From contig JACQYI010000061.1 in NCBI GenBank assembly GCA_016208305.1, positions 1-64,000 on the forward strand: DNA of 64,000 nt, read 5' to 3'. The stretch is from Oscillatoriophycideae cyanobacterium NC_groundwater_1537_Pr4_S-0.65um_50_18. Lineage in GTDB: Bacteria > Cyanobacteriota > Cyanobacteriia > Elainellales > Elainellaceae. Made by a program: the position numbers and the translations under genes. Below, in pieces: positions 3,681 to 22,503 of this stretch. Each line of letters opens with the position of its first letter. The stretch's first letter is position 1. The notes under the pieces were generated by a model, which searched no databases, was not told the origin of the DNA, and saw nothing but the letters and a program-made list of their open reading frames with translations.

Positions 3681-3812
3681 GGTGATGTGTAAGCCCTGTG
3701 AATTTGACCAGCGATTCTCATTGACCAGCGGATTGTCTAAGCTCTGGATTACCCAGCTCTAAAGTTCTAGTTTCTATGCTCCAGATTGACAAGCTTCGGA
3801 TCTCTAGCCCTC

Positions 3813-3846
3813 TTTCACTACGGTGTGTATTTCACTACGGTGTGTA
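3813..3846. repeat. 17-bp tandem duplication
   Basis: TTTCACTACGGTGTGTA occurs twice back to back (3813-3829, 3830-3846), upstream of the antiporter gene. The two copies are identical, suggesting recent duplication. The gap 3681-4240 otherwise holds only the MITE at 4033-4212; I see no gene in it. Confidence 0.85.
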
Positions 3847-4032
3847 AAAGCAGAAGCCTCTTTCGCTTCTATGGAAAAGCTGTAGAGGGAAAAATTGTAA
3901 GGACAAAGGCGCACCCTTGCCAAAACAAGTCCAAATGCTCTCAAATAATCCAGAGGGAATAAAGCCCCTCCAGATAGATTTAGGATGGCAAATGAAGTCG
4001 TTTGGAAAAGTTTTTTGGAAGTGAGATCCTTA

Positions 4033-19113: not shown

Positions 19114-20295
19114 TCACCCCTTGACGCAAACCACCTGCTTCAACGTAGCGACGACATCCACCAGATCGGCTTGGTTTTCCATCACTTGAGCGATCGGTTT
19201 GTAGGCTCCCGGAATTTCGTCCAGTACGCCCTCGTCTTTGCGGCACTCGACATCCTGGGTTTGCTGAATCAGGTCATCTAGAGTGAAGTTGAGCTTGGCT
19301 TTGTTGCGCGACATCAGCCGTCCGGCTCCATGAGAGCAGGAACAGTAGCTGTCGGGGCAGCCTTTGCCCTTGACGATAAAGGACTTTGCCCCCATCGAAC
19401 CGGGAATGATACCGTAGTCTTCCTGGCGGGCACGCACAGCTCCCTTGCGGGTGACATAGACCTCTTCGCCAAAGTGGACTTCCTTTTCGGCGTAGTTGTG
19501 GTGGCAGTTCACCTGGAGCAATGGCTTAGTGGGCTTGCCGCCTGCCATATGCTTCTCTACGACCTTTTGGAAGCGCACCATCATCACCTCGCGGTTGAAT
19601 TTGGCGTAGGTTTGTGCCCATTGCAGATCGCGCCAGTAGGCCGCAAATTCTACGGTGCCCTGGACAAAGTACGCCAGATCGGGGTCAGGCAGATGGGTAT
19701 CGCTCAGCTTCATCAGGTCTTTGGCGGTGCCGATGTGGCGCTGCGCTAACATATTGCCGATGTTGCGTGAGCCAGAGTGCAGCATTAGCCACACCTGATC
19801 TCGGGTGTCTAGGCAAACCTCTAAAAAGTGGTTGCCGCCGCCCAAAGAGCCGAGTTGCCGCATGGCTTTAGATTCTAGATGCTGCACTCCTGCATGCAGT
19901 TCTTTAAACTCTCGCCAGCCCTGCCAGTTGGTAACAGGTTTCTCGATGTCTTTGTTTTCGTTAAAGCCAACGGGAATTGCCGCCTCTAGATCAAGCCGAA
20001 TTTGCTTGAGCTTGCCCTCTAGCTGATCGCCGTGGAAGGGGGTTTTGATGGCACACATGCCACACCCAATATCTACGCCCACCGCTGCAGGGACGATCGC
20101 CTCCTGCGTCGCCACCACCGAACCCACCAGTGCACCCTTACCCAAGTGAACATCCGGCATCAGTGCCACATGCTTGAACACAAAAGGCAGAGAGGCGACA
20201 TTTTTCGCCATCTTGATTTCTTCGTTGCCCAGATCATGGTTTGCCCAAGAGAGGACGGGCGCACGCGTTTTGAAAGGAACCTGTTCGTAAGGCAT
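19114..20295 (-). CDS. rtcB: RNA-splicing ligase RtcB
   Basis: 393 residues. RtcB is a GTP- and Mn-dependent ligase that joins 2',3'-cyclic phosphate to 5'-OH RNA ends in tRNA splicing and RNA repair. Visible hallmarks are VALMPDVHLGKGALVGSVV, VGVDIGCGMCAIKT (the metal-ligand Cys in GCGM), SLGGGNHFLEV, LMLHSGSRNIGN and SYCSCSHGAGRLMSR, with the guanylylated His in SHGAGR. It follows rsgA after only 6 bases, so the two form an operon. No archease gene is adjacent. Confidence 0.96.
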   Translation of the reverse strand: MPYEQVPFKTRAPVLSWANHDLGNEEIKMAKNVASLPFVFKHVALMPDVHLGKGALVGSVVATQEAIVPAAVGVDIGCGMCAIKTPFHGDQLEGKLKQIRLDLEAAIPVGFNENKDIEKPVTNWQGWREFKELHAGVQHLESKAMRQLGSLGGGNHFLEVCLDTRDQVWLMLHSGSRNIGNMLAQRHIGTAKDLMKLSDTHLPDPDLAYFVQGTVEFAAYWRDLQWAQTYAKFNREVMMVRFQKVVEKHMAGGKPTKPLLQVNCHHNYAEKEVHFGEEVYVTRKGAVRARQEDYGIIPGSMGAKSFIVKGKGCPDSYCSCSHGAGRLMSRNKAKLNFTLDDLIQQTQDVECRKDEGVLDEIPGAYKPIAQVMENQADLVDVVATLKQVVCVKG

Positions 20296-20301
20296 GGGTG
20301 T

Positions 20302-21366
20302 TTACCTATTTTTGTAATGTTGCCGTAAGGTCTTATGCACCTGTTTCCAGCGGGCTTTTTCTTCAAGCTGGGCGCGCTGGTCTTGTTTGCGCGCCAGGTA
20401 GTTCAGCTCTTGCTGGAGTTTTTGGTAGCTGAGCCAGCGATCGGGTTCTAGTATGCCCTGAGCAATCGCCTCTTGCACCGCACAGCCTGGCTCTCGCTCA
20501 TGGCGACAGTCTCGAAAGCGGCACTGCTCAGCCAGAGCTTCGATATCGGCGAAGGTTCCCTGAAGGCTGTCTTCGCCTGCCCAGATTTGCAGTTCTCGCA
20601 TCCCCGGCGTGTCGATGATCAACGCGCCGCTGGGAAGCAGCAGCAATTCTCGGTGGGTGGTAGTGTGCTTACCCTGCTGGTCGCCCTGCCGCACCGACTG
20701 GACGGCCTGAACGGCAGATCCAAGCAGTTGATTGGTCAGGGTAGACTTGCCCACACCCGAAGATCCGAGCAGGGCGATCGTTTTTCCGGGTTGTAAGTAG
20801 GGTTGTAGGGCTGCTAAACCTTGCCCCTGCTCGGCGCTCAGCGCGACGATGGGAACACCGGAGGCAATCGCCTCTACTGCTGCAATCCGTTCTGTGAGAG
20901 CCTCACACAAATCCGTCTTGTTGAGGACAATCACAGGATTTGCGCCGCTGTCCCAGGCCAAGATCAGGTATCGCTCGATGCGCCTGAGGTTAAAATTGGC
21001 ATCCAGTCCGGAGACCAGAAACACGGTGTCTACATTGGTGGCAACCAGCTGTTCTTCTGTCCTGCTGCCTGCAACTTTGCGAGAAAACTTGCTGTGACGG
21101 GGCAAGACGTGATGGATGGTGGCACGCTGCTCTGATAGATGGGGGCGAATGACTACCCAATCGCCCACTGCCGGGAAGTCTTGGGAACTCAATGCCTGAT
21201 GTCGAAACTTGCCGCTGACCTCAGCCGTAAATTCGCCAGCTTCGGCGTACAGCACATAGGCTTCTTTGTGTTGCAGCGCTACACGGGCGATCGCCTCATC
21301 CGATGTTTTGAGGCGATCGTGCTGCTGGGCGATACTGTCGCTCCAGCCTAATTCATGCAATTTCAT
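20302..21366 (-). CDS. rsgA: Ribosome-assembly GTPase RsgA (YjeQ)
   Basis: 354 residues. RsgA binds the 30S subunit late in assembly and releases RbfA on GTP hydrolysis. The GTPase motifs are in circularly permuted order: G4 [11 protein letters not shown], then G1 [17 protein letters not shown] (around residue 200), then G3 [11 protein letters not shown]. An N-terminal OB domain precedes it (VGDWVVIRP). A C-terminal zinc knuckle carries [17 protein letters not shown], with the expected Cys-Cys-His-Cys spacing. It is the first gene of an rsgA-rtcB operon, with a strong promoter at 21586-21613. Confidence 0.95.
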
Positions 21367-21576
21367 GGGGGTTTCCTGGTGAGTCCTGTTTGGGCAAGGC
21401 TCACGGAGGAACGGAGAATCTTAGGGACTGATCAGTTCCTCTGCGAACCGTGAAGCGTTTTTGTGGGGTTGGCTACTGAATCAGTCATAGATCTGCCTCC
21501 TGGGTGTATCGACTTTGCGCGATCGAGCTTTCCCGATCCCCTTTAGGGACGCCACTTTAAGAGCGATGGGATGAGA

Positions 21577-21613
21577 TATACTACAAATATATTACAATTG
21601 TAGGGATTGTCAA
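21577..21613 (-). promoter_or_regulatory. rsgA-rtcB promoter with TGTARTATA operator repeats
   Basis: On the minus strand TTGACA (21613-21608) is separated by 16 bases from TATATT (21591-21586). TGTAATATA (21596-21588), overlapping the -10, and TGTAGTATA (21585-21577), just downstream, start 11 bases apart. The same two 9-mers with the same 2-base spacer recur in the promoter of the DIP1984 gene at 22467-22503. The distance to the rsgA start is about 210 bases; the rest of the gap 21367-21945 shows nothing else. Confidence 0.65.
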
Positions 21614-21945
21614 GTCTTCCTTTTACTAAGCCTCACTAAATTATTCACAACACAGCCAAAATGATGAAAATCAGCCTGTTTCCCCTAACCCACCCTCGCC
21701 TTCAATAGACCAGCAGTTGGTTGTAACAATACGCAGTACGCGGTACAGATGTAACAGTACTGGGCATAACTTGTGAGAAATTCGCTGCCCCTAGCGGCGT
21801 CCAGGGGTTTAGCCCCCGCCCGATACTATAAGAGGTGCCTGCTCGCTTCTATTGAGTTGGCTACCAGCAGGCTGATCATTCATCTAGAGCTATTGGATTC
21901 GTTTTTTGAGCAATGTGGCCTCTCAAAAAACGATCTGTAAGAGGT

Positions 21946-22404
21946 TTATTCCATCAGATCAACAGCCCAGTTGGCTTGCTGAATTTGTGTGTCTAGCTGC
22001 CGAATTTCACGAGCAAGGTGATCGGTTTGAGTTTGTATCTCTGCCACGTTGACGGTGCTGAGCAGCTTGATTTCTGAAACACTGTAACGGGTTCCCGTGT
22101 TCGCCGCCGCATCTACCAAAGCAGTGTAGGTGCGTTGCTTGAGTAACAGGATGTCTCGTGTAGCCAAAGCATCGGCGATCGTTGCCTCATTTTGAAACAC
22201 CGTTAAAGCGTTGGTCTTGTTAATGTGCTGAACCAGGCGTGTCAGTTGAGTCACGATCGCATCTACTTCGGCAATCAAGCCCTGCGGATTTTCGGGAGGA
22301 GCTTCACCTTCTTGAATGACAGCACTTCTGACCAAGCGCTGCTGCAACTGCGCCAACCGCTTTTGGCAATCGGCTCTCAGAATAAGGGCTTCAGCAAGCT
22401 TCAT
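21946..22404 (-). CDS. DIP1984-family protein
   Basis: 152 residues, mostly helical. It opens MKLAEALILRADCQKRLAQL and then QRLVRSAVIQEGEAPPENPQ, with HINKTNALTVF in the middle and TIADALATRDILLLKQRTY after it. This matches the DIP1984 (septicolysin-like) family as I remember it, of unknown function, often associated with RNA or stress genes. It is co-oriented with rsgA-rtcB 580 bases upstream of them, with its own promoter (22467-22503). The two transcription units carry the same operator motif, which suggests a functional link to RNA or ribosome repair. Confidence 0.75.
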   Translation of the reverse strand: MKLAEALILRADCQKRLAQLQQRLVRSAVIQEGEAPPENPQGLIAEVDAIVTQLTRLVQHINKTNALTVFQNEATIADALATRDILLLKQRTYTALVDAAANTGTRYSVSEIKLLSTVNVAEIQTQTDHLAREIRQLDTQIQQANWAVDLME

Positions 22405-22466
22405 AGCGACGACTCTCAGGAACTATAAATCAGGGACTATAAATCAGGAACTATGCATTTCAGGGG

Positions 22467-22503
22467 TATATTACATTTATACTACATATACTACAAATGT
22501 CAA
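22467..22503 (-). promoter_or_regulatory. DIP1984 gene promoter with TGTARTATA operator repeats
   Basis: On the minus strand TTGACA (22503-22498), a 16-base spacer and TATAAA (22481-22476) form a near-perfect sigma-70 promoter. Three 9-mers overlap or follow it: TGTAGTATA (22495-22487), TGTAGTATA (22486-22478) and TGTAATATA (22475-22467). The last two have the same 2-base spacing as in the rsgA promoter. The rest of the gap 22405-22785 is a repeat element plus unremarkable sequence. Confidence 0.7.

Follow-up and report, generated by a model that had tools for sequence, protein, structure and literature searches.

Two promoters in the 64,000-nt stretch of cyanobacterial DNA analysed here (the window) carry the same two 9-mers, one upstream of a gene pair encoding an RsgA GTPase and the RNA ligase RtcB and the other upstream of a gene for a DIP1984-family protein, which raises the question of what regulator might bind them and what the three genes share. 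Judging from the sequence comparisons set out below, it is very probable that the 9-mers represent operator half-sites of TrcR, placing the window genes under translation-stress repression, with a probable further layer of control in the leader of the rsgA gene.

Genes, promoters and 9-mers of the window

The rsgA gene (20302-21366; this and all other window features below lie on the minus strand) encodes a 354-aa GTPase identified by profile matches (Pfam PF03193, 183.2 with a cut-off of 30; TIGR00157, 165.5 with a cut-off of 100). Since a housekeeping RsgA, 35% identical to it, is encoded elsewhere in the genome (contig C4, 245530-246234), the window gene represents a second, accessory copy, hereafter rsgA2. 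It is followed after 6 bp by rtcB (19114-20295), which encodes a 393-aa RtcB ligase (Pfam PF01139, 413.9; cut-off 27). The genome encodes a second RtcB, 77% identical to the window copy (contig C79, 10619-11797; L251), and no operator half-sites were found in the 250 bp upstream of its gene. Among named relatives the nearest is Drouetiella hepatica (G003, L138), where rsgA2 is present as fragments with in-frame stops (G003:C12:23516-23829), flanked by intact DIP1984 and rtcB genes. A second rsgA was also seen directly beside the fosfomycin-resistance gene fosM, on a Lysinibacillus fusiformis plasmid (L308) and at L307.

The rsgA-rtcB promoter consists of a TTGACA -35 box (21608-21613) and, after a 16-bp spacer, a TATATT -10 box (21586-21591), and that of DIP1984 has a TTGACA -35 box (22498-22503), again a 16-bp spacer and a TATAAA -10 box (22476-22481). 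The predicted operator of the former is the tandem TGTAATATA-TT-TGTAGTATA (21577-21596), in which the two 9-mers (21588-21596 and 21577-21585, respectively) start 11 bp apart, and which overlaps the -10 box and runs just beyond it. The predicted operator of DIP1984 has the form TGTAGTATA-TGTAGTATA-AA-TGTAATATA (22467-22495); its three words (22487-22495, 22478-22486 and 22467-22475) start 9 and 11 bp apart and extend through the spacer and the -10 box and beyond, one of them lying inside the spacer. The promoter architecture, word order and 11-base spacing given in a preliminary description of this DNA are all borne out by these coordinates, with the third 9-mer of the DIP1984 promoter located in the spacer. 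The DIP1984 leader also contains tandem 14-bp repeats, AGTTCCTGATTTAT and AGTCCCTGATTTAT (22425-22452).

Chance similarity between two AT-rich promoters has next to no probability as an explanation of the shared motif. The motif does overlap the -10 box, a region of high AT content in any promoter, but five TGTARTATA words occur in the window, all on the minus strand, where 0.22 are expected (shuffle maximum 3, n = 100), and the exact tandem TGTARTATA-N2-TGTARTATA is found twice in the whole 6.94-Mb genome, both times in the window, against no match of a reversed-pattern control. The motif is, moreover, conserved upstream of orthologues: half-sites were detected at 9 of 16 accessory rsgA promoters and 7 of 19 accessory rtcB promoters (shuffled means ∼0.8), and at none of 14 housekeeping rsgA upstream stretches, the last being a weaker control because these stretches start from the matched portion of the gene and so include some of its 5′ coding region. 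Half-sites recur at rsgA2, rtcB and some DIP1984 orthologues, and the central proposal of the preliminary description, that a dedicated regulator governs a small RNA- and ribosome-repair regulon, holds.

A relaxed pattern, NGTADTAYRNNTGTADTAY, with up to one mismatch gave nine genome matches and four control matches. Its four exact matches are the two window sites, the promoter of a tRNA array on contig C35 and a site on contig C7 before a related small open reading frame (ORF), near which no tRNA genes were found; one match with a single mismatch lies upstream of trcR itself on contig C41. The other four single-mismatch matches (C4:505883, C34, C47 and C7:36238) are at the level of the control and were not counted.

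TrcR as the probable regulator

TrcR (All0854) of Anabaena PCC 7120 is a ribbon-helix-helix (RHH) autorepressor of translation-stress genes that protects an 8-bp consensus, TGTAGTAT, overlapping or adjoining the -10 box; this word is the TrcR site at the tRNA operon, and the site at the trcR promoter, ATACTACACTTGTATTAC, has a reverse complement, GTAATACAAGTGTAGTAT, that forms an 11-bp direct repeat (PMC10272220). Among the genes it controls are rtcB, rsgA, those of a rimK-containing operon and 26 tRNA genes arranged as an array; elongation inhibitors, under which the level of TrcR drops, induce the targets examined, and deletion of trcR raises rtcB 77-fold and rsgA 10-fold (PMC10272220). Replacement of Leu44 by Pro abolishes binding, and two Nodularia phages are mentioned in the same study (PMC10272220).

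The consensus word TGTAGTAT overlaps or lies near the -10 box in both window promoters, and the 11-bp direct repeat of the trcR promoter is likewise found here, as is a site at a trcR-like gene suggestive of autoregulation. Because the motif, its position and two of the three window genes coincide with the published regulon, TrcR is the regulator proposed for these promoters. The rtcB and rsgA genes and a tRNA array are all among the operator-bearing genes (in the window operon, on contig C35 and at orthologue promoters). The system differs from that of Anabaena in that rsgA2 and rtcB form one operon, some operators contain three words, the tRNA array has a TrcR paralogue beside it and DIP1984 is a probable extra target; the list of Anabaena genes raised more than 8-fold does not contain DIP1984 (PMC10272220). 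The preliminary description had taken the system to be an undescribed one, a view that is not supported for the operator, the regulator or the targets rtcB and rsgA, all of which had been published for Anabaena (PMC10272220). Induction of rtcB by RNA or translation damage is also a feature of the RtcR-rtcBA RNA repair operon of enterobacteria, where RtcR is an activator with a CARF-like domain (PMC7790460), whereas the regulator proposed here is a repressor and no rtcA lies next to rtcB.

The regulator gene was expected to lie outside the window, and a TrcR-like gene is indeed present on contig C41 (758240-758569). A trcR-type site was detected in 55 of the 291 genomes of the class searched, against 0 of 291 for the reversed pattern, and behind nearly all of the listed sites a gene of ∼110 aa with Leu at residue 44 starts on the opposite strand. 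The protein encoded on C41 is 81% identical to the one used as query, which comes from a relative in which the gene sits behind an exact site of the published type. Upstream of the C41 gene, at a distance of 158 bp, is the site ATACTACACTTGTAATAT (758065-758082), with one mismatch to the search pattern. The TrcR-like protein gave no Pfam or NCBIfam match over cut-off, RHH included; nevertheless, motif, gene position and Leu44 together strongly imply that it is the TrcR orthologue. The query used did not recover any TrcR homologue from the phage collection.

A divergent paralogue of TrcR (132 aa, ∼47% identical over most of its length, with weak RHH_4 and BrnA profile matches) is encoded in this genome beside an HNH gene and an operator-bearing tRNA array. 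The latter, on contig C35, comprises at least nine tRNA genes preceded by the operator TGTAGTATG-TTGTATTATATT-TGTAGTATG behind a TTGACA box. The paralogue was located at L046 (5418-5816, plus strand), next to the HNH endonuclease gene and tRNA array, and also at L123, L129, L131 and L133-L136. Directly behind the tRNA-array operator lie small ORFs of ∼64-72 aa (L005, 1280-1498, minus strand, equivalent to L046 about 3743-3958; L004, 1258-1476, minus strand) that share the C-terminus TYSLERRCFL and possibly represent another leader peptide.

It is conceivable that this paralogue rather than the chromosomal TrcR acts as the main repressor at both window promoters, or that the sites are shared by the two proteins, since it would recognize the same TGTADTAY words and its arrangement with the HNH gene and the tRNA array recurs in several relatives. 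This is considered unlikely, however, as in several of the genomes in which rsgA2 or rtcB has an operator there is a single TrcR match only, and the chromosomal TrcR is conserved together with its own site. Far less probable still is binding by a repressor of the BlaI/CopY type, which was entertained on account of a palindrome in the rsgA spacer, TACAATTGTA, that resembles the TACANNTGTA box and overlaps the first 9-mer of the site. No palindrome of this kind is present at the DIP1984 site; the element common to both promoters is a direct repeat, with spacings of 9 and 11 bp, as in the published TrcR site, and for this reason the BlaI/CopY reading was dropped. The association of rtcB, rsgA and a tRNA array also corresponds to the TrcR regulon.

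With TrcR as regulator, unstressed cells would have the protein bound over the -10 region at both promoters, that of rsgA2-rtcB and that of DIP1984, which would be blocked as a result. Inhibition of elongation would cause TrcR to fall, so that rsgA2, rtcB and DIP1984 would be switched on together with the emergency tRNA array, supplying a ribosome-assembly GTPase, an RNA ligase able to repair RNAs after cleavage and a helical protein whose gene lies elsewhere in or beside tRNA arrays.

The leader of rsgA2

Approximately 210 nt separate the promoter from rsgA2. Within this region a leader peptide ORF (MTDSVANPTKTLHGSQRN, 21432-21488) is preceded by the Shine-Dalgarno sequence AGGAGG (21496-21501) and followed by a predicted hairpin (21373-21411) that would hide the Shine-Dalgarno sequence of rsgA2. 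Three segments are involved in the computed pairings: segment 1 (CGCAGAGGAA, 21436-21445) at the end of the leader ORF, segment 2 (TTCCTCCGTGAGCC, 21398-21411), which can pair with segment 3 or alternatively with segment 1, and segment 3 (GGACTCACCAGGAA, 21373-21386), which holds the rsgA2 Shine-Dalgarno sequence. The whole element, with its peptide ORF and mutually exclusive hairpins, occupies 21369-21501.

A leader ORF with a Shine-Dalgarno sequence was detected in 28 of 33 cyanobacterial rsgA2 leaders, compared with 28 of 1024 control stretches (2.7%). Most of the peptides start with M[AT]ESV, as does that of the window, or with MTV[FL], and among the former the codons for E, S and V vary synonymously. 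The last 58 nt of the leader fold more stably than dinucleotide shuffles (mean z -2.5; 17 of 28 below -2; window -2.54), and swapping arms among leaders weakens pairing between segments 2 and 3 (p = 2e-4) and between segments 1 and 2 (p = 6e-4), compared with p = 0.58 for a control region. With swaps restricted to leaders of one type and near-identical leaders removed, the corresponding values were 2e-4 and 5e-3 (controls 0.47 and 0.11). The structural evidence consists of these per-sequence folds and swap tests, the latter not fully removing relatedness; RNAalifold returned no pairs on a MAFFT alignment of rsgA2 leaders that was gappy and poor.

In translational attenuators such as those of cat-86 and ermC, a leader peptide with a strong Shine-Dalgarno sequence is combined with mutually exclusive helices, and the Shine-Dalgarno sequence of the main gene is hidden. 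The rsgA2 leader has the same composition, a leader ORF with a strong Shine-Dalgarno sequence and computed exclusive helices, one of which hides that of the main gene; it differs in preceding a gene for a ribosome-assembly GTPase instead of a drug-resistance enzyme, in its three segments and in having no Rfam family. When the window and ten rsgA2 loci were scanned against Rfam, no usable family emerged, the one match (MIR161) being far below the gathering score. The element is likely to be a translational attenuator of the cat-86/ermC type and a new RNA control element. As second layer of control it would probably operate as follows: translation of the leader ORF to its end would place the ribosome over segment 1, leaving segments 2 and 3 to pair and hide the rsgA2 Shine-Dalgarno sequence; when the leader ribosome is stalled early, perhaps in a drug-dependent manner, or is absent, segments 1 and 2 would pair and free it. 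The geometry of the segments points to this direction, with expression on in the stalled or ribosome-free state.

The ORF and hairpin may instead be incidental, amounting to a stable 5′ end that does not attenuate, so that TrcR alone would control the operon. No covariation could be demonstrated with RNAalifold, and a comparable leader was not seen in six of the eight RsgA homologues examined on plasmids of other phyla. Such a reading is considered rather doubtful in view of the excess of leaders with an ORF over the control stretches, the retention of the M[AT]ESV start despite synonymous codon changes and the better fit of arms to their own partners than to swapped ones. Recurrence of the arrangement also argues against it: both a leader ORF and a hairpin at the Shine-Dalgarno sequence precede rsgA on a Brevibacillus plasmid and, less clearly, on a Peptoclostridium plasmid.

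DIP1984 and tRNA arrays

The 152-aa product of the third window gene (21946-22404) belongs to the DIP1984 family (DUF6847) according to both profiles (Pfam PF20935, 176.5 bits, cut-off 27; NCBIfam NF038048, 185.8 bits, cut-off 70), and its structure model matches PDB 3KDQ, DIP1984 of Corynebacterium diphtheriae (Z 16.6, rmsd 2.2 over 151 residues), which has a known helical fold and no assigned function. A match to the arm of seryl-tRNA synthetase (2dq0; Z 7.1, rmsd 2.0 over 68 residues) was discounted as evidence of tRNA binding because it is one of several coiled-coil ties, the only matches beyond 3KDQ. Neither PADLOC nor PHROGs returned a family for the protein.

A search of 388 genomes of the class gave 27 with a member of the DIP1984 family, whose gene, in 20-kb neighbourhoods, often lies within or right after arrays of 9-28 tRNAs (L110, L113, L114, L116, L117, L119, L120, L122, L123 and L126), with rtcB directly after it in L117, L119, L120 and L126. 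Around cyanobacterial DIP1984 genes tRNA density is 4.6 per 10 kb, compared with 0-0.26 at rtcB, rsgA and trcR control loci, which are shorter stretches. At least five tRNAs are found near DIP1984 in Acidobacteriota (L177, L179, L183 and L194) and on viral contigs (L219, L221, L222 and L224) as well, although most other non-cyanobacterial loci are without them (4 of 50 have them). Dense arrays with an HNH gene are known from genomes of Mycobacterium and from phages (PMC5966550); unlike those units, the cyanobacterial arrays have a TrcR operator, a TrcR paralogue, DIP1984 and rtcB.

Lone DIP1984 genes can carry operator words of their own, as in the window, L008/G050, L010/G003 and L095/G086. 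Since the gene is often in or beside arrays and can have its own words when alone, we infer that the window contains tRNA-array genes split off as separate TrcR units. DIP1984/DUF6847 is a probable new TrcR target and tRNA-array member; a literature search found no paper naming DIP1984 or DUF6847 together with tRNA arrays.

The operator, the regulator and the targets rtcB and rsgA were known, and DIP1984 as a probable member and the rsgA2 leader element are new. The stress regulon, recently discovered in cyanobacteria, is extended here to a further lineage. The chances are about even that these parts constitute a two-layer emergency-translation module, in which TrcR would act at transcription and a previously undescribed leader attenuator would sense ribosome stalling, with DIP1984 as a protein partner to the emergency tRNA arrays found in cyanobacteria, Acidobacteriota and phages. 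For the widespread DIP1984/DUF6847 family, which has a solved structure, the association with tRNA arrays and RNA repair is the first functional hint found here. A further prediction is that ribosome stalling would lead, via the leader peptide, to production of accessory RsgA proteins.
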